From the NCBI GenBank assembly GCA_030841085.1, contig JAVEDP010000024.1:1-64000 (forward strand): 64,000 bases of DNA, in the 5' to 3' direction. The first letter of the stretch is position 1; each line of letters opens with the position of its first letter. Below the pieces are notes generated by a model. That model did no database searches and had not been told where the DNA came from. It saw only the letters and a list, made by a program, of their open reading frames with translations. A program made the position numbers and the translations under genes. This DNA comes from Pyrinomonadaceae bacterium (GTDB lineage: Bacteria > Acidobacteriota > Blastocatellia > Pyrinomonadales > Pyrinomonadaceae). Shown here in pieces: positions 44,894-63,998 of this stretch.

Positions 44894-45029
44894 CCCAGCC
44901 TACTTCGGCAGCTGACTGCGTTGGCTCGGGATGTCGCCGTTGAATTCAAAATTGGCGACGACGATAATTGGTTTGTCTGAAGTAACTCTCACGCTGATCG
45001 CAACGTTAGTAATGCTGTCTGGTATCCAC
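44894..45029 (-). pseudogene. Truncated tail of a collagen-like protein paralogue
   Basis: This stretch is highly similar to the 3' end of the collagen-like gene (45823 onward): translated on the minus strand it gives NVAISVRVTSDKPI ... ANFEFNGDIPSQ and ends LPK like its neighbour. Homology starts abruptly next to the HigBA module and includes bases past the stop codon. It is a partial duplicate without a start, separated from the intact gene by the toxin-antitoxin pair. Confidence 0.8.
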
Positions 45030-45030
45030 T

Positions 45031-45405
45031 TCATGAAACTTGATCTCGCTTTTGTTTGCGGCGAACGGCGCCGCGAGCAGCCGCGACGCTCCTACCATTT
45101 TTCTTGCGCTTTGCTTCCTCAGGTACAAAGGTTACGCGCACCCGCGCGTCAAGGGCGCCGGCAACGCGTCGCAGGTTTGCCAGAGAGTGTCCTTCGTAAC
45201 CGGGCGACTCGAGGCGGCTAATGTGCTGTTGCGAGGTCTTTAAGCGACGAGCCAGTTCCTTCTGCGAAAGCCCAGCCTCCTCTCGGAGAGCGGCGAGCTG
45301 GACCGCTACATCCCAAGCGTCGCCTGCCCGCTGAAAACGAGCCGCAAACGCCGGGTCTTTCATCTGCTCTTTCAGATATTGATCGAAATTAGTTTTTTTC
45401 ATCAC
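45031..45405 (-). CDS. higA: HigA-type XRE antitoxin
   Basis: 124 residues. The helix-turn-helix is LREEAGLSQKELARRLKTSQ then QHISRLES (about residues 37-64), followed by NLRRVAGALDARVRVTFVPE. A basic C-terminal tail (RKKNGR ... RRKQKRD) is unusual for antitoxins of this size. The antitoxin neutralises and represses the upstream toxin. It overlaps the toxin gene by four bases (ATGA), in the toxin-first order typical of HigBA. Confidence 0.88.
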   Translation of the reverse strand: MMKKTNFDQYLKEQMKDPAFAARFQRAGDAWDVAVQLAALREEAGLSQKELARRLKTSQQHISRLESPGYEGHSLANLRRVAGALDARVRVTFVPEEAKRKKNGRSVAAARGAVRRKQKRDQVS

Positions 45406-45822: not shown

Positions 45823-46527
45823 TCACTTCGGCAGCAAACTGCACTGGCTCGGGATGTCGCCATTGAATTCAAAATTGGCGCCTACAACAATTGGTTTGTC
45901 CGAAGTCACTCTTACCGAAATCGCAACGTTAGTGATGCCATCGAAGCCTGGACCACTTGTCGTCGGCATCACCCAGTCAACGTCGCGCGTGTGAGCCGCA
46001 GCCAGGGCGACGGTGGTCGCGCCGGTTTCACCGGGGTAAGTGCGCGCGGGGCTAGAGCCGGGAATGGTGATTCCAGCGAGATTCGTCCCATTTCTATCGA
46101 GAATGTTCACGGCGATATTCGCCGTACTGCTGCTGCCGTTAAAGACGTAAACATCATCACGAGGACTGCCACCCGCCAATGGACGATGCGCAGGCGTGCA
46201 AACCCAAACGTAAGGTGGCCCAACGCCTGATCCGGGAGCGCCGGCAGGTCCTATTGGTCCAGCAGGACCAGCAGGGCCGGCAGCGCCTGCTGGGCCAGTT
46301 GGGCCAGTTGGGCCAGCGGGACCCGCGAGGTTCCACGTCACTCGTTTCTCGTTGTGGCGGCAAGTGGTGCTCGCGTCGACCATTCGCATGTTTCCATTCA
46401 CCTTGTTAACGCAGGCCTCCAGCGTTGGAGGTGGTGGCGCGGTTAGCGCGGTCGGAACTATCAATGCGGAGCAGGCGAGAAAAAATATACTTGCGATTAC
46501 ACCTCTACGGCCAAACTTGCTATGCAT
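45823..46527 (-). CDS. Secreted collagen-like protein
   Basis: 234 residues from ATG 46527, directly behind ggaaggagaaacacc. Signal peptide about 1-29 (ending PTALTAP). A short N-terminal domain contains Cys pairs (EACVNKVNGNMRMVDASTTC). Residues about 71-101 are ten Gly-Pro-x/Gly-x-Ala triplets (GPAGPTGPTGPAGAAGPAGP ...), a collagen-like stalk. The C-terminal beta domain (AISVRVTSDKPIVVGANFEF) is shared with the truncated copy at 44894-45029. Likely a surface fibre or trimeric protein. Confidence 0.85.
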   Translation of the reverse strand: MHSKFGRRGVIASIFFLACSALIVPTALTAPPPPTLEACVNKVNGNMRMVDASTTCRHNEKRVTWNLAGPAGPTGPTGPAGAAGPAGPAGPIGPAGAPGSGVGPPYVWVCTPAHRPLAGGSPRDDVYVFNGSSSTANIAVNILDRNGTNLAGITIPGSSPARTYPGETGATTVALAAAHTRDVDWVMPTTSGPGFDGITNVAISVRVTSDKPIVVGANFEFNGDIPSQCSLLPK

Positions 46528-50685: not shown

Positions 50686-50711
50686 TGGTGCCGAAGGGGG
50701 GATACGAACTC
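50686..50711 (-). other. tRNA 3'-end remnant, putative island attachment site
   Basis: Read on the minus strand the stretch gives gagttcgtatccccccttcg then gcacca, the T-arm, acceptor strand and CCA of a tRNA. No matching acceptor 5' strand, D-arm or anticodon arm is found on the far side. The T-loop position normally A reads T. It looks like a displaced tRNA end of the kind left by integration of an island into a tRNA gene; it marks a change from housekeeping genes to accessory genes. Confidence 0.5.
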
Positions 50712-50879: not shown

Positions 50880-52103
50880 CTACTCGGCTATGCTGGGTAC
50901 CACTGCTGGCTCACGGTCGGGGAAGAATGCAGGAGTGGCAGTGAGATTCAGTCGCATTCTCTCCCTCATTTCTTCGTCGAGACGTACCGATAGACGCGAC
51001 TCGATATGCTCGATAAGAAACATCAAATCACGACAATAAACAGTCGGAGAGTTGAATCCCAACGCTGGGTGGTAACGATGAGGCACATAACCTCCGCCAC
51101 AGGCCTTGACTAATCTACAGTGTTGACAGGTTTTTGACAGGTTCTCGAATCGTTCAAATCTTGAGGCGACCAAGTGCTCACTGAGAATATCGTTGAAAGA
51201 ATGAGCGAATATGTTCTTTGCGGTCGAGACCGCCCCGTCGTAAGTTGATTTTAGAGAATCGACTGCCTCATATGCTCCATCGGTTTGAACGACGGCCAGC
51301 TGGACCGCAGACAGCCCATAAGACTCAACCGCATGCCTACCGCCGATCATAAGGTGCATTAGGTCTTCAAAGGTTCTTATCTTGATTTCGTGAACATCAT
51401 TGCCCCACCAATGATCGAATACTCGAGAAAGCCATAGGCCGTAACCGTAACCATGGTTTTGATCAAAAGCGGAAGGTGGTGTCCGTTCGTGGTTAAAATG
51501 AGGAAAAAGAAAATCAACTGGAATTCGACCGAACCTCCTAAACCAATTCAAGAGTTCCACCGGGTCGGAGTCCGGCTGAATAACGCATAACAGGCCACCT
51601 TTTATTTCAGCGTACTCTGGCTCAGAGAGTATTTTGATTGCATTCACAACTTGGTGATAAGTGGACTGTCCGCGATGGTCTAATCTGTGCTGATCGTTAA
51701 GCTCCCTATAACCATCGATGCTTATCCCGACGCCGATTTTCAAGCGCAGTAGTAGTTCGGCCCAGCCGTCATCTAGCAGAACACCGTTGGACTGCATGCC
51801 AAATTTGACCGTGCATACTTTTCCCAAAGTCTTTTTGATTTCAGGAACTGCATATTCAAAAAACTTTTTACCAGCTAGCAAAGGCTCGCCGCCATGGAAG
51901 ATAATCGAGATCGACTTCAGATCATGCGCAAGAACATGCTCTCTGATTCTTCGGATCGCTTGGTCGAGGACGTCAATTGACATCCGGGAGGGTTTCGTTC
52001 GCCAGGATTGGTCAGCTAGTTCGTACTCGTAGCAGTAATCACACTTGATGTTACACCTAGCCGCAACCTTTAAGAGGAAGGTTCTTATAAGTGCGTTTTC
52101 CAC
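50880..52103 (-). CDS. FxsB-type radical SAM/SPASM peptide maturase
   Basis: 407 residues from GTG 52103, six bases after the second precursor's stop; aaaggga lies upstream. The radical-SAM cluster motif is ARCNIKCDYCYEYELADQSW (CxxxCxxC, about residues 13-32). The following ADQSWRTKPSRMS is characteristic of the FxsB branch, and IIFHGGEPLLAG is the SAM-binding GGE. The SPASM end has CQHCRLVKACGGGYVPHRYH (about 343-362) and a later Cys (VYCRD) for auxiliary cluster ligands. FxsB enzymes install crosslinks (cyclophane type) in ribosomal peptides. It probably modifies the two peptides encoded just upstream. Confidence 0.85.
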   Translation of the reverse strand: MENALIRTFLLKVAARCNIKCDYCYEYELADQSWRTKPSRMSIDVLDQAIRRIREHVLAHDLKSISIIFHGGEPLLAGKKFFEYAVPEIKKTLGKVCTVKFGMQSNGVLLDDGWAELLLRLKIGVGISIDGYRELNDQHRLDHRGQSTYHQVVNAIKILSEPEYAEIKGGLLCVIQPDSDPVELLNWFRRFGRIPVDFLFPHFNHERTPPSAFDQNHGYGYGLWLSRVFDHWWGNDVHEIKIRTFEDLMHLMIGGRHAVESYGLSAVQLAVVQTDGAYEAVDSLKSTYDGAVSTAKNIFAHSFNDILSEHLVASRFERFENLSKTCQHCRLVKACGGGYVPHRYHPALGFNSPTVYCRDLMFLIEHIESRLSVRLDEEMRERMRLNLTATPAFFPDREPAVVPSIAE

Positions 52104-52109
52104 GTCCCT

Positions 52110-52313
52110 TTACGGAGTATAAGTATCAGAGTGATCCTGGAAAGCGGTATGGTTGACATGAGGTCCGTCCTCAACCTCATTTTCAAATCGCTCCCGCACT
52201 CGCTTGAGGATCTTGTCACCGTCCTGAAACGGGAGATGTGACAGAGACTGAATCTTATTCTCAGTTGCAGGGTCCGTCTCAATCACGCCGTCACTGTGTC
52301 TTGAGTTTTTCAT
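52110..52313 (-). CDS. RiPP precursor peptide 2
   Basis: 67 residues from ATG 52313, two bases after the stop of precursor 1. A leader-like helix (GDKILKRVRERFENEVEDG, about 32-50) precedes a C-terminal core NHTAFQDHSDTYTP (about 54-67). Leader and core both align with precursor 1. It ends six bases before the radical SAM start. No similarity outside this pair is known to me. Confidence 0.75.
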   Translation of the reverse strand: MKNSRHSDGVIETDPATENKIQSLSHLPFQDGDKILKRVRERFENEVEDGPHVNHTAFQDHSDTYTP

Positions 52314-52315
52314 GG

Positions 52316-52516
52316 TTATCCGCTGACATTCGTATGTTCGGTAAACGCGGTGTGATTGTCGAACTCCGTATGTTGTTCAGCAAGGAACCTGTCGCTTTGC
52401 GCACTAAGCTCACTGTCATACCGCAACATCACGCGTTCGAGAATCTTGTTTACATGTTCGACCGCGACAACAGTTTTCGGAGAATCCGGAGCGTTAGTGG
52501 TCGTCGAGGTGTCCAT
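52316..52516 (-). CDS. RiPP precursor peptide 1
   Basis: 66 residues from ATG 52516. The N-terminal 18 residues are Thr/Pro/Ser-rich. A helical leader (VNKILERVMLRYDSELSAQS, about 22-41) precedes the core NHTAFTEHTNVSG (about 54-66). It shares NHTAFxxH with precursor 2, and the KILxRVxxR(Y/F)xxE leader. It is the first gene after a strong promoter only nine bases upstream of the start codon. Confidence 0.75.
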   Translation of the reverse strand: MDTSTTTNAPDSPKTVVAVEHVNKILERVMLRYDSELSAQSDRFLAEQHTEFDNHTAFTEHTNVSG

Positions 52517-52525
52517 AATGCTGTG

Positions 52526-52553
52526 ATTCTAATCCAAGGAGCTTTTTTGTCAA
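52526..52553 (-). promoter_or_regulatory. Sigma-70-type promoter for the RiPP locus
   Basis: On the minus strand, TTGACA (52553-52548), a 16-bp spacer and TAGAAT (52531-52526). The -10 ends nine bases before the precursor 1 ATG, so transcription should start at or within one or two bases of the start codon. No ribosome-binding site can fit, which suggests leaderless translation. Confidence 0.7.
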
Positions 52554-52657: not shown

Positions 52658-53380
52658 CTAGTCGTTAATTCTGCTGCGTAACTCCCCAATGCTAAGCCAC
52701 GTTTGACTCCTATGTAGCATACGGTGGCAGTTTGCGCACACGATGGCGAGATCTGCTAGCCTCGTCCGTCGCGTAGCGTCCGTTGCCGAGAGTGGCAAAA
52801 CGTGATGACACTCTGCGTACCCATCACCAATGGAGCCGTAGAACTCTGAGAAATCGAACCCACAGACCTCACAGGCGAGTTTGCCGAACGCCGCCAGTGC
52901 TTCCCGTTTTTTCCGTCGGACTACCGTAAGATTTCGTTCTCGCCATTTGTGCAAACCAAACAGCAAACGCCCCTCACGAAATTGAAGCCCGTCGTCGCCT
53001 CTACTCTCGATCCAGGCCTGCGCAACAACAGATGGCGCGCTGTTATTGCTAACTCGGATTGCCTGAGCGGTGTTATGAATCAACGACTGATTCGACGCGA
53101 AGTCGTCCCAGACAATTTTCTCCAGGCTCCCACCTCGGCCCAATCCAGCGCCTGGAAACGTGGGATCGAGCCGGCAAAGATTACGAAGCTTCATGTGCAC
53201 ACCACTTGGATTACGAAATGCTGGAGTTCTGGAATTGAAAGGATGAATCGGCAACTTGTTCAAGAATGTGCTCAATTCAACGACCTTAGGCGTGCGCTTG
53301 CTTACCCTCGTCATGTCAACGCTAAAGTAGACATCAAGCAAAAGAATCAGTTCATCGCGTGTCCAGTCAGGATTTTTCAT
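52658..53380 (-). CDS. HNH endonuclease, McrA-like
   Basis: 240 residues. The N-terminal 110 residues (WTRDELILLLDVYFSVDMTR ... GVHMKLRNLCRLDPTF) match the N-terminal domain found in McrA-like restriction nucleases. The HNH site is C-terminal: CEVCGFDFSEFYG (about 171), AECHHVLPLS (about 193) and CANCHRMLHR (about 216), with two CxxC pairs holding zinc. McrA-like enzymes cut modified DNA; recognition here could be of phosphorothioate or methylated DNA given the neighbour. It is 22 bases downstream of the methyltransferase gene. Confidence 0.85.
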   Translation of the reverse strand: MKNPDWTRDELILLLDVYFSVDMTRVSKRTPKVVELSTFLNKLPIHPFNSRTPAFRNPSGVHMKLRNLCRLDPTFPGAGLGRGGSLEKIVWDDFASNQSLIHNTAQAIRVSNNSAPSVVAQAWIESRGDDGLQFREGRLLFGLHKWRERNLTVVRRKKREALAAFGKLACEVCGFDFSEFYGSIGDGYAECHHVLPLSATDATRRTRLADLAIVCANCHRMLHRSQTWLSIGELRSRIND

Positions 53381-53402: not shown

Positions 53403-54866
53403 TCAAACCGTAACGGTGCGTGAGGTTTTTATCAATCGATGCCCTGAAAGAGTAAACCCTTTGCTGTTCAATACTCTCTCCCATCCGTCTTTTGTCCCGA
53501 TCGACTCAGGGTGTTCATAAAGTCCACACCGTTCTTCTTGTTCAGTAAGTCGTTCGAAGCGAGCACGAAGCGGGTGCCCCTGTGCTAGAAGGGTTTCTTT
53601 TCGGTGGAGAATAAAAGGATTCACCGATTCAGAGTATTCATTATACTTGATGCGAAAGTTGTTTAGCGGAACTACCAGTGAGCCAGCAAGGGCGGGGTGT
53701 GCCGTCTTCTCAAAATCAGGATAATAAAGGTAAGAGATTTGTGGTTTACTTACCTTTAGCTTGATAACGTTTGCGTTCTCGACAGAACCTATGTAGGCGC
53801 GCGCGCAACCCTCATAAACTCGTAACACTGAGGGCAAAGCGGGCAGAGCACTCGCATGTAAGTACAAAGCGTCCGGTAGTCGTTTGCCTACGGATGACGT
53901 CCGACAGGATTCGCTTATGAGTTCCCTTTTGCCCGCAGAGAATAATAACTGGTCTGCTAGCTCACAGGCCTTGCGGTAATTTGGGAAGAACGCCCGAACA
54001 TCTAACTGTAAATCGCGCGGGAGTTGAGAGAATCTAGGGCGCCCCGCGAAACGAGATAAGGCGAGATAAACCAAAAGATCTTGTGTTCGCTCCTCACGAA
54101 TCACCGCCCATTGTTCTGCGCCTGTTACTTTACGAATTATCGCGAAAGCTCGCGGTAGACTACCGATTTTTTCGCGAATCAAGTCCGCGACCGCGATCTC
54201 AGACTCATCGGGGAGACGGCCGCGAACCGTCAAAAAGCCCGTGAGAACGTCAAAAAGTTCGCTGTACCGCTCAAAAATTAGGTCGCTAAAGCGCTGCCGG
54301 GGAATTGCTGTTTTTCTTCTGTATCGCGAAGCATCAAAGGATTGCCGCAGCTCACTATCTCGGAATACGTAGAAGATGCCTGGCGCAATAGCCAGACTCT
54401 TAACATCTAATACGTCATCAATCCAACCGCCCAATTCGTGTTGGTCGTAGAACTTCTGAAATGTTCCTCGACTAGTAACGCAACCGTCTGAGTAAGGACT
54501 GCACAGACCTGAGCGGTTTGCCTCCAATGACAAACGAGCCGATACAATGAGGACTTTTTGAGTTAGAGACCATGCATCTTTTAAGACGTCGATACGCTCA
54601 GCCACGTCTTCGATTACATTAACTACATACCCTAAGTTAACAACATCAGCCGACCGTCGTTTACTCTCGGGCCGATGTAGCGGGTCCCAACCATCTACAT
54701 CAACTCCTTGCTGGTTGAGCCGACGAATGTCATCGCCCCGCCCACAGCCGTAATCAAAAACTGACGTGGACTGAGTGAGCAATCCGTGTTCGAGAGCTAA
54801 CTGAATTGGCCGAGAAAACTCGATTCGTTTTATGGCTGTTTTTTGCCTCTGGACGGATAGCCTCAC
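53403..54866 (-). CDS. DNA phosphorothioation-associated putative methyltransferase
   Basis: 487 residues. SVFDYGCGRGDDIRRLNQQG (about 39-58) is SAM motif I; VDVDGWDPLHRPES (about 58-71) and ADVVNLGYVVNVIEDVAERI (about 74-93) complete the Rossmann core. ALSRFAGRPRFSQLP and the long helical C-terminal part match the putative methyltransferase family found beside dnd clusters, recalled from the TIGR04096 group. The dndABCDE genes are not in the window. It heads the operon with the HNH gene and is divergent from the Mrr-type gene, with 116 bp between. Confidence 0.78.
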   Translation of the reverse strand: MRLSVQRQKTAIKRIEFSRPIQLALEHGLLTQSTSVFDYGCGRGDDIRRLNQQGVDVDGWDPLHRPESKRRSADVVNLGYVVNVIEDVAERIDVLKDAWSLTQKVLIVSARLSLEANRSGLCSPYSDGCVTSRGTFQKFYDQHELGGWIDDVLDVKSLAIAPGIFYVFRDSELRQSFDASRYRRKTAIPRQRFSDLIFERYSELFDVLTGFLTVRGRLPDESEIAVADLIREKIGSLPRAFAIIRKVTGAEQWAVIREERTQDLLVYLALSRFAGRPRFSQLPRDLQLDVRAFFPNYRKACELADQLLFSAGKRELISESCRTSSVGKRLPDALYLHASALPALPSVLRVYEGCARAYIGSVENANVIKLKVSKPQISYLYYPDFEKTAHPALAGSLVVPLNNFRIKYNEYSESVNPFILHRKETLLAQGHPLRARFERLTEQEERCGLYEHPESIGTKDGWERVLNSKGFTLSGHRLIKTSRTVTV

Positions 54867-54982
54867 GCTCTATATCCTAACTCACCAGAATAATAAAACC
54901 CGAGAAGTAGCGGCGTGGTTTGCTCTAAATTCCGCCGGACGTCGACCGATGTATATTTAAGCTTTGAAAGAGCGAGTTGCTT

Positions 54983-55852
54983 ATGAAAGATTTATCGCCC
55001 TCCTATGACGCCGTGGAGCTTACAGTCGATGGATTTATTTTGCGCGACGACGACTCCGACGAAGATCAATACATTGATGCCTTCGACTGGGCCATCCTTC
55101 CCGATTTTGATTTGTGCGTTTACTGCTCGCATCGTCTCGTAAAGGTCGAAGGCGAAGAGCAAGAAGACGGGCACCTACTAAGGGACTACTGTCTCTGGTA
55201 CTGCCGAAACTGTAGGTTTTGGCAGTCCCGGATTTATTCTGATCCCTACGGTGGTTGTATGCCAGGACCTGATAATTGGGCCTACATTTCGAAACTTCGC
55301 GAATTTCCCGGGGAGATACCAGACGGCTGCTCCAGCGAGTTCGCGTCATTCATAAGACGTAATCCAAATTTCCTGCACACATGCGACCCAACAAAGTTTG
55401 AAAAACTGGTCGCCGATGTCTTTAGAGCCAATTTCAAGAATAGCGAAGTTATTCACGTCGGTAAGCCTGATGATGGCGGCATTGACGTCGTCATGGTAGA
55501 CAGCGAGACTCAACAATGGCTAATTCAAGTCAAACGCCGCGGATCGGGGAGTGCATCGGAGGGTGTTGCGACAATTCGCGACATGTTAGGTTCAATGATA
55601 CTGAATGGGGCAGCGCAGGCAATTATCGTTTCGAACGTGAATCAGTTTTCGTTGCGAGCCAAACAAGCGACGGACAAAGCAAGGGGTCTCGGGCTGACAA
55701 TCCGGCTCGTCGACAAAGGCATTCTAAATCGAATGCTGGAGCCCGTGTTACCTGATAGGCCTTGGTTAGGGCCTATTCGCTCGGTCGACGAAGTTTTGGC
55801 TGCGCGACTCGAGCAAGAGATTCCTAGCGATCCAGAAATGCCGTTATGGTAG
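54983..55852 (+). CDS. Mrr-type restriction endonuclease with N-terminal zinc ribbon
   Basis: 289 residues from ATG 54983 (a TTG two codons earlier is less likely). A zinc ribbon lies at about residues 52-85: CVYCSHRL and WYCRNCRFW. The Mrr-type PD-(D/E)xK domain (about 145-275) has FEKLVADVFRANF, GKPDDGGIDVVMVDS with the catalytic Asp, and WLIQVKRRG with the Gln-x-Lys. RLVDKGILNRML closes it. The fold cuts DNA, often modified DNA. It is on the opposite strand to the genes on both sides and is convergent with the receiver-like gene (40 bp). Confidence 0.86.
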   Translation: MKDLSPSYDAVELTVDGFILRDDDSDEDQYIDAFDWAILPDFDLCVYCSHRLVKVEGEEQEDGHLLRDYCLWYCRNCRFWQSRIYSDPYGGCMPGPDNWAYISKLREFPGEIPDGCSSEFASFIRRNPNFLHTCDPTKFEKLVADVFRANFKNSEVIHVGKPDDGGIDVVMVDSETQQWLIQVKRRGSGSASEGVATIRDMLGSMILNGAAQAIIVSNVNQFSLRAKQATDKARGLGLTIRLVDKGILNRMLEPVLPDRPWLGPIRSVDEVLAARLEQEIPSDPEMPLW

Positions 55853-55892: not shown

Positions 55893-57818
55893 CTAATCCT
55901 GCCTCGCATCATCGACTTCAAGCTCAGGAACTTCTAACTCAATGATTAACGGGCCATAGTCCCCCTTGATCACTCTCTCCTGATCAATTGGGTTCTTCTG
56001 GGGATCAACGTACGGTCCGACAACGGTAACGATATCGTAGCCCGAGTTTTTGAATGCTCGCTCTAATCGATCTCGTGAATAGGGGATTCCTTCTTCCATC
56101 TTCGAAAACAGCTCTCGCTGCTCTACGGAAGTTCGCCAACTTTCTCTTAGCTTCTCAGGAAGAGTGTCACTATCGACCTTAACCATCGCAACGCGAAGTT
56201 TCCCCACAATATCTGGGGCCAATATCAATCGGTCAATCAGAGCGTTCGTGCTTCGACCGATTAAAACAACAGCGCTTTGATCAGCAGGTTTAACAGAAAT
56301 CAGTTGATGTAGTTTTCCTTCATGATCTTTGTACGAAACTGTCGCGCCGGCGGCATGCTGCATAGGCGGCAGTACTGGCGTTCCAACCCGTGATAAAGAA
56401 CTTGTAAACAATTGTTGAAGCTGAATCGAAAAGGTAGATCTAAAGCGACGAACCCTCTGAAAGTTGTCGGACTTAATGTGGTTTGCCAGTTCACTTCTCG
56501 TCCACGTGACTGGATTGCCTAAGTCCCACTCGATAACATAATCTTTGCCGTCGTGAAATAATATTGGCGTCACCAACTCCTTGGGTTTTTTGTGAAGTAA
56601 TAATTCTGAGGGGCGTGCGACCCCAGTAATGAATAAGAATCGCTTTGCGTAGTCGTGCTGTAAATCACAAGCGGGTGTCAAGACAAGCAGGGCAATTCTC
56701 TCCCCCTTAGCGAACTCAACTACAGGCGCTACTCCTTCACCTAGAGCATCAACCCTCGTGGAAAAGAGTACCTCCCCAAACTCAAGGTCGAGATGCGCAA
56801 GTATCTTTGAACTTCGAAACAGCATCCCATCAGCAATACTGGCCGAAGCGGACGACGGCAGGAAATGAGGTGCCGGATAGTCGTCCCATTGCATCTCATT
56901 GAGTTGTAGCGCCGCAGTAGATAACCTCGTATCCTCTTCAAGTTCAAACTGAAAGTATTGTCCAAACACTTCGAGTAGATAGGCACCAATCAATTCTCCT
57001 TCGGCATTAAGTATGAGTGTATGCAGATCGGCATAATCCCGTAGATCCAGAAGGCGAACTGTCTTTAAGAACCTCGCCTTCGCGTCTTCTAGGGCTTTGC
57101 TCCACAACTCGAGAAAACCCGTTAGCTGTAATGTCTTGCGATAGGAAGAGGTGATCCGATAGAGAACTTCCTGCAGTTCAGGTGATTCCTCAAGCAATGT
57201 CTTTCGCATTGTCCGAAATTGAGAACCTACCAGTTCGGCTTCATCACGGAACTCGTCTTTCATGTCTTCTAAGCGAGTGCTCGAAGACATTAAAACAATC
57301 ATCGGCGGCGCTTCACGTCTGGGCGCGACTATTTCCTTCACTCGATTCATTGCTTTATCCCGTGCTTCCTGATCTTGTCGCGCACCGAGAAACAGATCTA
57401 CAAATATCAATTGCGCTTCAGCCGCTTTGCCTAATTGCTGTGAATCATAGGTGCCGCCTTGGAGAGTGAGTTCCTTAAATAAGAGATTGCTCAAAGGCTC
57501 CAGCTGTTTCTTACCTGCATTTTGGCGTGCGTCATACGAAGCGAAGAGAGCTTTAACCACACCACTTTCGTCCCTGCGATCCCATAAGAATTTCACGAAG
57601 GTGTCGTCTTGCTTTAGCTCTTCCAACCTGGTTTCTGCGTTGGTTATTCCGTAAGTTCGGAGAAGGTTGATTTCCGGCTCTGACAAGTCGTCCTGAAAGA
57701 AATTCCACGATTCCGCCTCGATGTCGGCGGATGACGGGATCTCATCATAAACATCGTCGATTATCGCTGCGGTAGTAATACCTTCGCGCGTCAATATTTC
57801 TCGCAATTCTTTAATCAT
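55893..57818 (-). CDS. Receiver-like protein with large unknown C-terminal region
   Basis: 641 residues. Residues about 15-220 look like a response-regulator receiver with an insertion: TAAIIDDVYDE (acid pair at about 20), AQLIFVDLFLGARQ with the candidate phospho-Asp at about 141, and MIVLMSSSTRLEDM with the conserved Ser/Thr at about 174. Residues 220-641 match nothing I know; LALVLTPACDLQHDYAKRF-type (RIALLVLTPACDLQHDY, about 372) is a notable conserved-looking segment. It overlaps the kinase gene by eight bases, so it is the probable output partner of the kinase. Confidence 0.7.
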   Translation of the reverse strand: MIKELREILTREGITTAAIIDDVYDEIPSSADIEAESWNFFQDDLSEPEINLLRTYGITNAETRLEELKQDDTFVKFLWDRRDESGVVKALFASYDARQNAGKKQLEPLSNLLFKELTLQGGTYDSQQLGKAAEAQLIFVDLFLGARQDQEARDKAMNRVKEIVAPRREAPPMIVLMSSSTRLEDMKDEFRDEAELVGSQFRTMRKTLLEESPELQEVLYRITSSYRKTLQLTGFLELWSKALEDAKARFLKTVRLLDLRDYADLHTLILNAEGELIGAYLLEVFGQYFQFELEEDTRLSTAALQLNEMQWDDYPAPHFLPSSASASIADGMLFRSSKILAHLDLEFGEVLFSTRVDALGEGVAPVVEFAKGERIALLVLTPACDLQHDYAKRFLFITGVARPSELLLHKKPKELVTPILFHDGKDYVIEWDLGNPVTWTRSELANHIKSDNFQRVRRFRSTFSIQLQQLFTSSLSRVGTPVLPPMQHAAGATVSYKDHEGKLHQLISVKPADQSAVVLIGRSTNALIDRLILAPDIVGKLRVAMVKVDSDTLPEKLRESWRTSVEQRELFSKMEEGIPYSRDRLERAFKNSGYDIVTVVGPYVDPQKNPIDQERVIKGDYGPLIIELEVPELEVDDARQD

Positions 57819-60189
57819 TGGATTGAGGAAGTTCCAATACGAAGGTGTTCAAGCGATTGGGGTGCACGGTATTCTCGTCCGACAAGTAGAGTTCAGCATC
57901 GTTGTAATGCGCACACTCGCGAGCGATATACAGGCCTAGTCCTTGTCGACGTCGACGGTCTTTGGTGGAAAAGAATGGTCTGAATACATCTTCTTTTAAG
58001 TCGCTGCTAATACCGGGACCATTGTCTTCAAAAAATATCTGACGCATCTTGGAGTCGACGACCACTGTAATCTTTGGCACAAACGAGTGATCTTCATCAG
58101 CTCGCCGTTTTAACCAGAAGACCGAATTCGAAGTCAAATTCTCTATGATCTGAACGTACATTCCTTTTACCCCGGTGACATCCAAGCGTCGCAAGCCTTT
58201 GGTTTTTAGCTGCGTTTTTAGCCGGTGACGTTGGAACTGCAGCTCATGTCCCTCAAAAATTTCTTCAATGAGGCTCACTAGATCGAATGTTTCACGACGC
58301 TGCCGTCCTGAGATACTTAGTGGATCGAGCACTCTCAGTCGCTTATTCATCGTTTTCATTTCGGCCCGTAATACCTTGAGCGTCGAGGCAATATTTCTAG
58401 GCAGGTTTTCTGTTTCCGCGTTTGCCAAGGACATCATTGCAGTCTCAGTGGATCGCGCCAATTCATGAGCAATAACTTCAAGCATCAGACCTATTCCAGC
58501 CAGCTGAATCAGTCGAGATCTTTCGTCTTCAGCCTGTTCTGCGAGTGCACGAGCTTGATCAAAATATTGTTTCATCTGATCAAATATTTCTTGCACGTCT
58601 TGTAGTTCAAGGCTGCTCTCAGGATGTCTGCTTTTTAATTGACGGATCGCCTGTCGTGCACGTGAATCAAACGCGGAAATACGTTCCTCAACTTGATCGA
58701 AATCAATTTCCACATGCCGTTGGCTACGATTGACCTCATCCATGAAATTCCGCAATAAGTTTTGAGTCACGTATCGAAGAATCTCAACAAAGACGTATTT
58801 TTCCGGAGTTTCTTTCAATCCCTCCCTATTCGTTTGGTCTATGAGGTCTGGATTTCCTAAACGGGAAATCTGCACCCGACCAATAAACTGGGCTTTATTG
58901 AGTTTATATCCAGGCGAGGCAAGCGCCTTACGATCCAATCCCAACCAATCGTCCTTATCTTCCCCGTACGGCAGCACGCGATACCCATCACGAAACAGCA
59001 TGATTCCTGACCAACGACGCTGAAGTTCTCGGACAGTATTGAGATTGCCGATAGAATCAATTCCTCGCAATTTTTGACGGTTGTACCAGTACGCCTCATA
59101 TTCGAAAGGGCCAACGGTATTAATTGCGTAGGCCGGAATCTCCTCATTTGCGTCGTCCGTCAAAACGGACAAATCAATGTTCGCGAAATGTAAATGTTTA
59201 TCCTCCTTCCTTTCCGGGCCTTTAAAAGTCATTTCTACGTCAAGAGATGGTGCTCCTCGACGGATCTTGTAGGACGCTTTCACCGTCGCATGAGCAGCAG
59301 CTAGGATCTCTCTGTCCATCCTCGGAATCTCAACTCGTTCACTGTTGAAAAAAATTGCAATTCGGAACCGGCGTTTTCCAAGAGAAAAGGGATCTGACAA
59401 TTTAGCGAATTCCCTTATTGCGATGTCCCTTATTCTGCGGGGCGACCAATTCCCTTTGAGGCCCGATATCTTGATATTCGTTCCGCTCCACTCCTTGCTT
59501 GGTTTTGGGCTTCCTATAGTCGGCTCAATGTCGATGTCTTGCAGATCCAGATCAAGGTCTTCGAAACGTCGCCAGTCTATCGTTAACTCGTTAAGGTTCT
59601 TTTCTCGCTCAGTCGCCGATTCCAAATACAGCATCCAACCAAGCCTCATAACGGACAGCCGTCCAACGCCTTTTTCGCCCAAATACGGAGAGGCTGGTGC
59701 TGCTCCGTTCCCGCTCGCCGCAAACTTAGCCTCTGCAGCTTCTATTTCCTTTTTTCGAGCTGGTGTTCCGATAACGAGATACTTTGTTTTAATGTCATCA
59801 GCGGACATCCCACTCCCGGTGTCTCGAATGTCGATCCAGTTAGTTTCGGAATAAATCCCTGGCAGCCTCTTTTTGAGAATCGGCAATGTCTTACAGAGCG
59901 CCAACTCGTGCTTAAGCCTGTTAAGGGCATCAGGCTCCGCCGTAGGCTCCGCATTGACTAAAAGCGAATCTTTTATTTCGTCAACCGGTCGAGGTTTGTC
60001 GCCGTCCAGTTCTCGCATCACTTCTAAGAAGCTGCTGTAAGACAGGCAAACGTGTAAAAGGATGTCTACGCCGGTCTTCGATTTCGCGTCGATGGCGTTC
60101 TTTACAAGCTCATAGATCGCCACTTCATCAGAGCTGATGAGCTCCGAACCAAGTTGTAGAACCGTCCTAGCGGAAACACGAAAATGCAT
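57811..60189 (-). CDS. Histidine kinase with additional N-terminal MORC/HSP90-like ATPase domain
   Basis: 792 residues with two GHKL ATPase modules. The N-terminal one (about 1-230) has AIYELVKNAIDAKS, DTGSGMSADDIK and YLGEKGVGRLSVMRLG, as in HSP90/MORC/MutL-type ATPases. The C-terminal one has ENLTSNSVFWLK (N box), FFEDNGPGISSDLKEDVF (G1) and RRQGLGLYIAREC (G2). Just before it, LMLEVIAHELARSTETAMM (about 565-583) resembles the phospho-acceptor H-box, with His at about 573. There is no membrane segment, so it is a cytoplasmic sensor. A coiled-coil stretch (about 470-550) joins the parts. Confidence 0.8.
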   Translation of the reverse strand: MHFRVSARTVLQLGSELISSDEVAIYELVKNAIDAKSKTGVDILLHVCLSYSSFLEVMRELDGDKPRPVDEIKDSLLVNAEPTAEPDALNRLKHELALCKTLPILKKRLPGIYSETNWIDIRDTGSGMSADDIKTKYLVIGTPARKKEIEAAEAKFAASGNGAAPASPYLGEKGVGRLSVMRLGWMLYLESATEREKNLNELTIDWRRFEDLDLDLQDIDIEPTIGSPKPSKEWSGTNIKISGLKGNWSPRRIRDIAIREFAKLSDPFSLGKRRFRIAIFFNSERVEIPRMDREILAAAHATVKASYKIRRGAPSLDVEMTFKGPERKEDKHLHFANIDLSVLTDDANEEIPAYAINTVGPFEYEAYWYNRQKLRGIDSIGNLNTVRELQRRWSGIMLFRDGYRVLPYGEDKDDWLGLDRKALASPGYKLNKAQFIGRVQISRLGNPDLIDQTNREGLKETPEKYVFVEILRYVTQNLLRNFMDEVNRSQRHVEIDFDQVEERISAFDSRARQAIRQLKSRHPESSLELQDVQEIFDQMKQYFDQARALAEQAEDERSRLIQLAGIGLMLEVIAHELARSTETAMMSLANAETENLPRNIASTLKVLRAEMKTMNKRLRVLDPLSISGRQRRETFDLVSLIEEIFEGHELQFQRHRLKTQLKTKGLRRLDVTGVKGMYVQIIENLTSNSVFWLKRRADEDHSFVPKITVVVDSKMRQIFFEDNGPGISSDLKEDVFRPFFSTKDRRRRQGLGLYIARECAHYNDAELYLSDENTVHPNRLNTFVLELPQSND

Positions 60190-60302: not shown

Positions 60303-63300
60303 TTAGGTATTGGTTTGGATCCCTTCAGAGATGGCGCGGACCGCCCTCTCCATAAATTCGCTCTCAACAAATGGCACTTGAGCATACGTGAGTGGTGCGC
60401 CTTCAAGCTTTGCCAGGAGATGTCCTCGACCGAGCAATCGCTCAGCTCCTTTTTCACCTAATGCGATATCCGACGTTCCTTCAGAGTCAACGCGCAAAAT
60501 TAGCCGGTTTCCTAGGTTGGATCGTAACTGCATCGGCATGACATTCGCATCCGGTCTTTGGGCTGCGAAAATCAAGTAAATGCCGGCGGCCCGTGCCTTG
60601 ACGCCCAGCCGTCCAACTAATGCAGTTACCTCCTCTTTGTAGTCATCGACCATCATCCATTCAGCAAATTCATCATGTATCACCCAAATGACCGGGAGGC
60701 GCTCGTTCGGCGAAACATTCCGGTTATAAACCATTAGACTATTGGCTTTTGCGCTCTTGAGCTTACCGTAACGTCTGTCCATTTCAGTCACCAGCGACCG
60801 TAGCTTTTCAAGGGCGACATTCTGCTCATCTATCACTCCACCGTCCAGATGCGGTAAGTCATCAAAATGAAAATAATCGACGCCTTGTTTAGGATCGATA
60901 AGCGTTACTCTCGCTTGCGCTGGCGTATTTGTAGCAGCTATCGCCAGAATTATGTTTTGCATCAGCACGGACTTCCCGCTTCCAGTCGATCCCGCAATCA
61001 AAGTATGAGGAGCATGTTCTCTAGCCGGAGAAATAAACAGCAAACTTCCGTCGTCCTCCCTTACTGCTATTAGCAACTCCTGATTACCATCGGTGGAGGA
61101 TGGCTGCCATCGTTGCCATACATCTTGAAGGAGAATAACTTTCCGGCGTTCGCGTTCAACTGAAATTGAGACAAGTCCAGGTTCTGGACGGACCGCAATT
61201 AGATTCAGCCCATGAGTGGTCAAGAATTCCGAGCGGCGCTTTAGTACCTGGTCTACCGTAAGGTTTGCACTTCCCTCGAACTTCAACAACGCCGAGTTGG
61301 GCGTCAAAATGCTGCTTAATAACTTGGACCGTAACTGGAATTGTTGAAGAGCGCCTTTCGTTCTACCTTCGACTTGCTTGAGCCAGGCTAAATCTTCAGA
61401 TGAATCCAACTGTTCATTGACTTCGGGTGAAAGTAGTTGGGTTATCTGCGGGAATGCCCATGATCCGTGGCTTTCCGATGCTTGAACTACGGGAGTAAAC
61501 TCAATCGCTGAGTCGGGCGCGGTTGGCTCTTGCTCGATTGGGGCCACCAGCTCCGCATCCGATTCTTTTTCGGCTGGCAGAATCTCCTCAGGGGCGGGCT
61601 TCGTTACGGCACCCGAAGGCCGGCGGTAGACTCGTTTCTTCCAGGCATTACTATCCGCCGCTTTCTCACGAACCTCAATGGGATCTTGATCGGAGTAATA
61701 CTTCATCACGAGTTCACGCACGCGCGACCTCCCAAACACCTCTTGATATGAGTTTTCTAGGTCAGCGACCTCAACGAAATCTGATGAGTCTGGAGCGTCG
61801 CTAGGACCAGAGACAAAAACGTGTGAATAGCCTCTGACGAAAATGTCGCAGTTACCCTCACGTATCGCTCGTCTCCAATCAGTTAGACTGAGGTTCGCGC
61901 TTGCCGGGAAGCGAATTCCGTCTAGTATCAGATCGGACAGTCTTGACAGCCAAAGATCTCGATCCAGACGTTCTGGGTTTCCGAACAGAGCGTCATTGAT
62001 TCGCTTAACTGTATCCCGGAGTTGCTTTTGTGATTCCTTACTCTTGGCCGCGACACTTGCCGCGTCAATGTATTTCGCCTCAGTAATTATGACCGCCAAT
62101 TGCAACGAACCTTTTGCGTCCAGTTCAGGACTGAGAACAAGAATGTCAGCAGTTTGTTCTTCGCGTTGGCCCAACCAGTCGGCGTAATCGTCGAGGAAAT
62201 ACCAACCCAAATACTTATCGGTGCCCAACTCATGCTGGACTAAGAATCTGCTGAGGACAACACCCATCAACTCACTGGCATTCCGTCCACGCTTCGCAGC
62301 ACGAAGAACAATGTCACCCGAGATGTCTTTGGCATCATTTATGAACCGCTCAGATAGTGCCTTAAGGCTCGATTCATCTAGTTCTAAGTTCAAAGCCTTG
62401 ATCCGGCTCAGCACCATCGACTGGAGCAAGCCTAACGGTGCTTTCGACGAGATTATTAGATTCCGGCCATGAGTAGATGAGTGTTTATATCGAATTACGC
62501 GAACATCTTGGTTAAGTAATTGTCGTCGGTCTAGTAGCTCGTCGTAGTTTACAACCCAATTTCCCAAGTTATGAGTTTCCTCGAAGATTCGCGCCGTCGT
62601 ATTATCGCGAAAATCCAGTTGCCGAGCTGGCAGAAGTCTCTGACCTTCGACGCCATCCCAGTTCCCCTTAACAAAAGTAGTTAGAGCTGTTAGATAGGCC
62701 CAACCTTCTGCTGTTTGAACGGGACAGCAAAGGTAAACAACAGACTTCATGTCATCAAAAGCTGCCGGTCGTCGTTTAGACCATCTGGCAGGGACAAATG
62801 AATTTCGGACTGCGGGCCGCGCATTTTCCAAAAACCATTCAACCCTCGCATGTCGGGCTATGACGTCTTGCGAGAAAACTATGTCCGTCGGAAGGCCTTC
62901 CTTCTTCGATGGCGGCGGTGCCTGATCGGCCATGATGCCAATCCTGAGTCGCGCCATGAAGTCTCGGGTGGCCTCGCTGGCATTGAAGCTGTCCGCATCT
63001 CCGTCTGAGGTTTCAACAATCTTCTCGTACAAACTACGAAGCCGTTTTGGGTCTCGGTGCCTAAGGATCACCTGACATCGGATCTCGTCTTCCAATTCGT
63101 GAAGCGCACCAATCTTCTCGACCACCGCTTGCGGCAACCGTGCTGAGTCACAGTTGTAAAGTACTATTTGCAGATTGGCTTGTTCGTGAGGCTGCAGCTC
63201 CAGATATCGTTGCACCAATTCAACAACTTGGCTCGCAGCTTCGGCTGGGTTTTCATTGGTATCGTCGATCCCGTCATTGCTGATGGTCGGAAGCTCATGC

Positions 63301-63998
63301 AGGCTGTAATCACCCACCGCATCAGTTAAGGACAAAAGAACAGGCTCGTTCTCCTGCCAGCCAAGGACTAACTCGGGATAAAAAGGATGGCTCATCTCCA
63401 TTTCTGTGTCCCGGAAAAACAGTCTGGGATCGCCAAAATCCACTTCTCTGGTCACCAACAAACGCTTCACTAATTCCGCGACTCTTCCTGCCTTGATAGC
63501 AATTGCCGCAATTCGAAGCGGATGCCAGGGAGCAACAATCGACGTCGCTCGACCGCCTTCGACCGCGACAACGCCTAGGTGAAGCAAGGGGCGCAAGAGC
63601 AAGTCGCGATTGCGGTCGCCCTTCCCGTCGCGACACACGGCCGTCAGGAGTTCTCCATAAGCTGTCGCTTGATCCAGCAACGCGATATGTGCCAAGCCTT
63701 CGTCGGCGATTGCGCCGATCGCATCAGTGTATTTAGTTCGAAATTCTTCGAAGAGATCTTTCAGTTTCGTAGCGACATCAGAGGAAACTAGCCGTTGCTC
63801 CCGCGCAGTATCTAAATTCTTGATCCAGATCCGTCCTATGTCATTCGCCGTCTTGTATACGGCAACAAACGATCCTCGATCCTTGCCAAACACCGGCACA
63901 AACGTCCGCACATTCGAAAGGTCTACGGTCTGGAACTGCCCTTTGGCACTCAACGTTTCACGATTGGCGACACAGTAGACCATCGGGTGTTCAACCAA
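60303..63998 (-). CDS. FtsK/HerA-like ATPase, DptH-like (5' end outside window)
   Basis: 1231 residues are visible; the start lies beyond the window. The C-terminal third is the motor: TLIAGSTGSGKSVLMQNII (Walker A, about residue 1003), VTLIDPKQGVDYFHF and VIWVIHDEFAEWM (Walker B, about 1110), with AAGIYLIFAAQRPDANVMPM (sensor, about 1150). The long N-terminal part has no clear motif; about 770-830 is a Glu/Pro/Ala-rich linker. The motor resembles FtsK and the DptH ATPase of phosphorothioation-dependent restriction, from memory. It is separated from the kinase gene by 113 bp. Confidence 0.8.
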   Translation of the reverse strand: MVEHPMVYCVANRETLSAKGQFQTVDLSNVRTFVPVFGKDRGSFVAVYKTANDIGRIWIKNLDTAREQRLVSSDVATKLKDLFEEFRTKYTDAIGAIADEGLAHIALLDQATAYGELLTAVCRDGKGDRNRDLLLRPLLHLGVVAVEGGRATSIVAPWHPLRIAAIAIKAGRVAELVKRLLVTREVDFGDPRLFFRDTEMEMSHPFYPELVLGWQENEPVLLSLTDAVGDYSLHELPTISNDGIDDTNENPAEAASQVVELVQRYLELQPHEQANLQIVLYNCDSARLPQAVVEKIGALHELEDEIRCQVILRHRDPKRLRSLYEKIVETSDGDADSFNASEATRDFMARLRIGIMADQAPPPSKKEGLPTDIVFSQDVIARHARVEWFLENARPAVRNSFVPARWSKRRPAAFDDMKSVVYLCCPVQTAEGWAYLTALTTFVKGNWDGVEGQRLLPARQLDFRDNTTARIFEETHNLGNWVVNYDELLDRRQLLNQDVRVIRYKHSSTHGRNLIISSKAPLGLLQSMVLSRIKALNLELDESSLKALSERFINDAKDISGDIVLRAAKRGRNASELMGVVLSRFLVQHELGTDKYLGWYFLDDYADWLGQREEQTADILVLSPELDAKGSLQLAVIITEAKYIDAASVAAKSKESQKQLRDTVKRINDALFGNPERLDRDLWLSRLSDLILDGIRFPASANLSLTDWRRAIREGNCDIFVRGYSHVFVSGPSDAPDSSDFVEVADLENSYQEVFGRSRVRELVMKYYSDQDPIEVREKAADSNAWKKRVYRRPSGAVTKPAPEEILPAEKESDAELVAPIEQEPTAPDSAIEFTPVVQASESHGSWAFPQITQLLSPEVNEQLDSSEDLAWLKQVEGRTKGALQQFQLRSKLLSSILTPNSALLKFEGSANLTVDQVLKRRSEFLTTHGLNLIAVRPEPGLVSISVERERRKVILLQDVWQRWQPSSTDGNQELLIAVREDDGSLLFISPAREHAPHTLIAGSTGSGKSVLMQNIILAIAATNTPAQARVTLIDPKQGVDYFHFDDLPHLDGGVIDEQNVALEKLRSLVTEMDRRYGKLKSAKANSLMVYNRNVSPNERLPVIWVIHDEFAEWMMVDDYKEEVTALVGRLGVKARAAGIYLIFAAQRPDANVMPMQLRSNLGNRLILRVDSEGTSDIALGEKGAERLLGRGHLLAKLEGAPLTYAQVPFVESEFMERAVRAISEGIQTNT

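Follow-up and report, generated by a model that had tools for sequence, protein, structure and literature searches.

A three-gene unit lies on the minus strand of the window (the whole stretch of DNA that was analysed, 64,000 nt from a Pyrinomonadaceae bacterium, contig JAVEDP010000024.1), and its two short precursor genes, A and B, together with a radical SAM maturase gene probably make ring-stiffened peptides of repeated three-residue loops. The unit looks like a member of the triceptides, a peptide class that is already known. We are fairly confident in the reading as a whole, namely a minimal triceptide-type RiPP unit with multi-triad cross-linking, carried as cargo of an integrative element and giving a released peptide. 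The genes, their operon layout, the maturase family, the triad array, and the element context can be read in the sequence itself, and their coordinates are collected in Table 1.

Table 1. Features of the precursor–maturase unit and its surroundings (window coordinates unless a contig position is given)
Feature	Position	Strand	Description	Basis
Partial copy of tRNA-Leu(GAG) 3' end	50686-50709		22 of 24 bases match contig 119700-119723, same orientation; likely attachment site	Sequence match
Radical SAM/SPASM maturase gene	50880-52103	minus	407 aa; GTG start (52103), 6 nt past B	TIGR04269; ChlB match
Precursor gene B	52110-52313	minus	67 aa; starts 2 nt past A (gap CC)	ORF
Core array of B	52125-52160	minus	HVN-HTA-FQD-HSD, four contiguous Omega-x-x triads, then tail TYTP	
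Precursor gene A	52316-52516	minus	66 aa; opens the three-gene unit	ORF; homologous to B; changes relative to B at the invariant core positions synonymous only
Core array of A	52328-52372	minus	HTE-FDN-HTA-FTE-HTN, five contiguous Omega-x-x triads, then tail VSG	
Sigma-70-like promoter	52526-52553	minus	TTGACA-16-TAGAAT, 11/12 matches	Predicted
HNH endonuclease-like gene	52658-53380	minus	Directly upstream of the unit	PF01844, E 2.6e-6; PADLOC HNH / mREase_IV
DNA phosphorothioation-associated putative methyltransferase gene	53403-54866	minus		TIGR04096, 602 bits
SspH, part of SspBCD-FGH	60303-63998 (runs to contig 65549)	minus		PADLOC, 1665 bits

The genes follow one another in the order A, B, maturase with gaps of only 2 nt and 6 nt, and AAAGGGAC stands upstream of the GTG start of the maturase. 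The -10 box of the predicted promoter ends 9 nt upstream of the ATG of A; although sigma-70-like sites in the region are about as frequent as expected (three found versus 2.6), this one outscores the others by a wide margin and stands where a promoter of A should. No Shine-Dalgarno-like sequence was seen between it and the ATG, so the mRNA from which A is read probably has little or no leader. With a promoter-like site of its own, the unit is probably independent of the HNH gene upstream, which is probably a separate transcription unit. Neither the unit nor the element proteins scanned (a subset of the ORFs) included an exporter, peptidase, or immunity gene.

The translations of the precursors are MDTSTTTNAPDSPKTVVAVEHVNKILERVMLRYDSELSAQSDRFLAEQHTEFDNHTAFTEHTNVSG for A and MKNSRHSDGVIETDPATENKIQSLSHLPFQDGDKILKRVRERFENEVEDGPHVNHTAFQDHSDTYTP for B. 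An earlier, sequence-only reading of this DNA had described two ORFs here that share NHTAF-x-x-H and had called them a duplicated gene, and both points hold: the two are present on the minus strand, and they form a diverged duplication whose local alignment score of 52 was equalled in only 2 of 5000 shuffles. The leaders alone score 38 (equalled in 13 of 5000) and have the motif KIL[EK]RV--R[YF]---[LV] in common. Within NHTAF-x-x-H, the codons for N, H, A, F, and the second H differ synonymously between the genes and the T codon is identical, giving five synonymous, no non-synonymous, and one identical codon at the six invariant positions; every codon flanking these positions is altered in meaning. 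The core is thus constrained at the protein level, for which this comparison of two sequences is direct evidence, and the proposal of selection on the core is supported. The differences that the cores do have are non-random, being E/D and N/D exchanges at triad position 3. Conservation confined to the leader, with random changes in the core, had been named as the pattern that would speak against the proposal, and the A/B pair does not show it. The core is conserved as was claimed, but so are the leaders.

Beyond A and B themselves, searching every fetched locus by profile and by single sequence gave no precursor homologue, and B had no relative when searched by tblastn against plasmids (best E 7). 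Similarly, A and B matched no Pfam family model and, at E up to 1, none of the NCBIfam RiPP precursor models, including that of YhhA (NF041705); for comparison, a YhhA of known type scored 49.6 bits. A weak resemblance of both leaders to the family leader profile (10 and 17 of 1000 shuffles equal the score, for segments picked by eye) is no more than suggestive.

The organization of the core is best appreciated in register. Aromatic residues recur with a period of three, in five successive triads of A and in four of B; a run of five triads arises in 0.03% of shuffles of the same sequence for A, and a run of four in 0.8% for B. In all four triads that can be aligned between the precursors, position 1 stays aromatic and the residues at position 3 are conservative, and HTA is the sole triad that is fully identical. 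A short precursor with a leader and C-terminal Omega-x-x motifs, placed beside a maturase, is the arrangement by which triceptides are recognized, and A and B both show it.

In three-residue cyclophanes, according to the available portion of PMC11002830, an aromatic residue i is linked to the beta carbon of residue i+2. The acceptor precedents described there are His-Ala (HaaB, ScaB), Phe-Asn (XncB, OscB), Tyr-Asp (YxdB), and His-Arg (YhhB), and the linked pairs also include Phe-Ser and Tyr-Arg; a Glu acceptor, which HTE and FTE of A would need, is absent among the cross-links described in that portion. This geometry changes how the shared motif is to be read. The sequence-only reading had fitted Phe-x-x-His and His-xx-Phe to rings, whereas the known rings span i to i+2 (PMC11002830, same portion), so that Phe-x-x-His is the step between neighbouring rings and no ring itself. 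It was right that NHTAF-x-x-H is constrained, but the period-3 array extends further than that stretch. Its invariant Asn is indeed invariant, but is position 3 of the triad before HTA, which is FDN in A and HVN in B, and the seemingly free x-x includes the presumed acceptor, E or D.

The maturase passes a single family cut-off, that of TIGR04269 (FxsB), with 395.2 bits against 370; its score with NF041707 (YhhB) is 371.2 bits, under the cut-off of 445. The closest solved structure, by sequence and by fold, is ChlB (PDB 9gm3, E 7.5e-83 in the sequence comparison), an enzyme called a “multiple cyclophane synthase” in the title of a reference cited in PMC12636437. An AlphaFold2 model of the maturase (pLDDT 89.8) aligns with ChlB in Foldseek at TM scores of 0.86-0.87 (normalized to the query) and 0.94-0.95 (normalized to the target); the solved-structure sequences did not yield the ChlA chain. 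The radical-SAM cysteines C17, C21, and C24 are invariant among 37 maturase relatives, as are C326, C329, C335, and C357. By family model and predicted fold, the protein can be placed in the radical SAM/SPASM group that forms three-residue cyclophanes, which supports the earlier suggestion that A and B are RiPP precursors of such a maturase.

Used alone as the query in a direct scan of genome contigs, the maturase gave no match, and an alignment-based scan gave 80 relatives, none more than 42% identical; viral contigs held distant maturases only (best 37%). In a tree of 92 maturases, the branch of the window protein is long and solitary (1.24 changes per column; best identity 42%). Its closest neighbours by path, with weakly supported placement, are the maturases of Microcoleus (L017) and Trichodesmium (L020). 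Precursors from these two and three further cyanobacterial genomes also have the contiguous-triad layout, with cores such as HES-HSS-HAE-FHQ, HES-HSS-HGE-FNQ, HTK-HTS-HSS-HSK-YSS, and HPK-HSS-YSS-YTK-HSK, in which the same triad places are filled by other aromatics. Over 13 triads in three precursor pairs, positions 1, 2, and 3 changed four, eight, and three times, respectively, and all four changes at position 1 were from aromatic to aromatic (H, F, Y). In these small numbers, the pattern lies in the direction that the triad model predicts. As for closer kin, 15 listed genomes of the same genus had no such maturase, and 119 genomes searched in the same family had only one other, 35% identical; this rarity fits horizontal arrival. 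A Spirosoma plasmid (L008:2594-3001) carries a maturase with two different small ORFs upstream and a peptidase-type ABC transporter downstream, and is a possible second two-precursor unit.

The three-gene unit sits at the left end of an element of ~69 kb, as its last cargo. The element spans window position 50686 to contig position 119723 (L094-L096) and ends in a tRNA-Leu(GAG) gene (contig 119700-119784), beside which lie a tyrosine integrase (PF00589) and a small HTH protein. ARAGORN sees no complete tRNA within the window, and the tRNA-like piece at 50686 is therefore a partial copy. Between the repeats are a TrwB/TraG-type coupling protein, a lytic transglycosylase, and SspB, C, D, F, G, and H. 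A direct repeat of a tRNA end, a tyrosine integrase, a coupling protein, and conjugation genes together characterize an integrative and conjugative element; no relaxase was identified in it, and its mobility is predicted. Within the window, the G+C content of the island portion is 0.49, compared with 0.54 outside it. The element also encodes an ArdC-like anti-restriction protein adjoining a 1188-aa CHAT-domain/TPR protein (L096:3866-4816 and L096:5040-8606, contig 106666-111406). Elsewhere in the window (44900-45034 and 45823-46527), a short ORF of its own repeats the C-terminal portion of a collagen-like-repeat protein (ITNVAISVRVTSDKPI...) and is apparently a duplication remnant.

Upstream of the unit, the phosphorothioate defence genes SspH, G, F, D, C, and B form one run (contig 60303-74228; window 60303-63998, then L094:1-11228), with no SspA seen directly beside SspB. 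An Mrr-type restriction endonuclease gene at 54977-55852 is on the plus strand, opposed to its neighbours. Between SspH and the phosphorothioation-associated methyltransferase, two overlapping genes lie at 55893-60189, one for a 792-aa GHKL/HATPase protein with two matches of HATPase type and the other for a protein of 641 aa that no Pfam model matched.

For the choice of triads, leader recognition, processing, and role, we infer the following scheme. One promoter would drive two diverged precursors and one FxsB-family maturase, which would recognize the leader of A and that of B and work along the contiguous Omega-x-x array, five triads in A and four in B. In several triads, a bond would run from the His or Phe at position 1 to the beta carbon of the residue at position 3 (Asn, Ala, Asp/Glu), so that the product would be a string of three-residue rings, one directly after the other. 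Constraint would fall on positions 1 and 3 of each triad, with position 2 and the final residues freer. Processing and export may be supplied by genes elsewhere, and the product is most likely a released peptide for competition or signalling.

Other explanations should be weighed at each level of this scheme. That the short ORFs are no genes and their shared motif an accident may draw on how common short ORFs are and on the absence of a family model matching A or B; it is largely refuted, and we give it almost no credence, by the alignment score against shuffles, the purely synonymous changes at the invariant core positions, the tight gaps, and a maturase directly downstream whose family needs such precursors. 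As to the chemistry, cross-links from Phe to His (i to i+3), or only among the invariant Asn, His, Phe, and His, would agree with the invariance of these residues between A and B. We hold them to be very improbable, since all products of this enzyme group described in the available portion of PMC11002830 link i to i+2, and the period-3 array of A exceeds the invariant stretch and recurs in relatives with other aromatics. A more restrained version, in which one or two triads (e.g., HTA, FxD/E) are modified and the rest serve recognition or are coincidence, is possible, if doubtful. HTA alone is fully identical in the two precursors, and in many precursors of FxsB type there is just one motif, for example FNSFID; against this, all four aligned triads keep the aromatic position 1 and a conservative position 3, and the title given to ChlB (in the reference cited in PMC12636437) speaks of multiple cyclophanes.

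The surroundings raise the question of whether the unit is a working part of the Ssp phosphorothioate defence, for example as an effector peptide. Its neighbours are the genes for the HNH nuclease and the phosphorothioation-associated methyltransferase, which share its strand and its element, and an excess of lanthipeptide clusters close to defence genes has been reported (PMC12715929). We nevertheless consider this unlikely: the unit has a promoter-like site of its own and a 141-nt gap to the HNH gene, unrelated cargo is typically placed, like the unit, at the end of an element, and in 91 loci around maturase relatives no relative turned up for any of the six island proteins that were tested. 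Slightly less credible still is an intracellular role for the modified twin peptides, in phosphorothioate-based defence or element maintenance, which would make them a component of defence or addiction and not an exported natural product.

If the triceptide reading is right, one maturase takes two precursors with alternating His and Phe triads and with Asn, Ala, Asp, and possibly Glu as acceptors, and in the A/B pair nature has already set up an experiment on the rules by which three-residue cyclophane enzymes select their substrates. The period-3 register would then explain the division of the core into fixed and free residues, and would predict mass shifts that can be tested. The reading would also place a triceptide unit on a defence-carrying integrative element, in a genus whose other sampled genomes are without it.

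Several known systems can be set beside the unit. YhhA/YhhB and ChlA/ChlB are like it in maturase family, fold, and radical SAM domain length, and in having several neighbouring His triads per core (YDRVHNRHNR in relatives). They differ in their Arg acceptors, where the unit has Asn, Ala, Asp, or Glu; the unit has two precursors and longer contiguous arrays, misses the NF041707 cut-off, and is without a fused or adjacent HExxH hydroxylase domain. HaaA/HaaB and ScaB share with it the His-x-Ala triad, seen as HTA in both A and B; HaaB and ScaB join His C2 to Ala C-beta (PMC11002830, available portion). However, HTA is only one of four or five triads here, the unit is without the haaT/haaN-type genes of the Haa locus L011, and the tree, in which both maturases sit on unsupported forks, offers no close grouping of the two. 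Actinobacterial FxsA/FxsB systems have in common with the unit the TIGR04269 assignment, yet FxsA cores end in Phe-x-Ser-type motifs and often have an HEXXH protein nearby, and the unit has neither. The Microcoleus/Trichodesmium-type units (L017, L020, L144-L146) differ in maturase (40% identity), unrelated leaders, Ser/Lys acceptors, and a single precursor each, which belongs to no named precursor family, but they are like the unit in the four to five contiguous, His-first triads of their cores.
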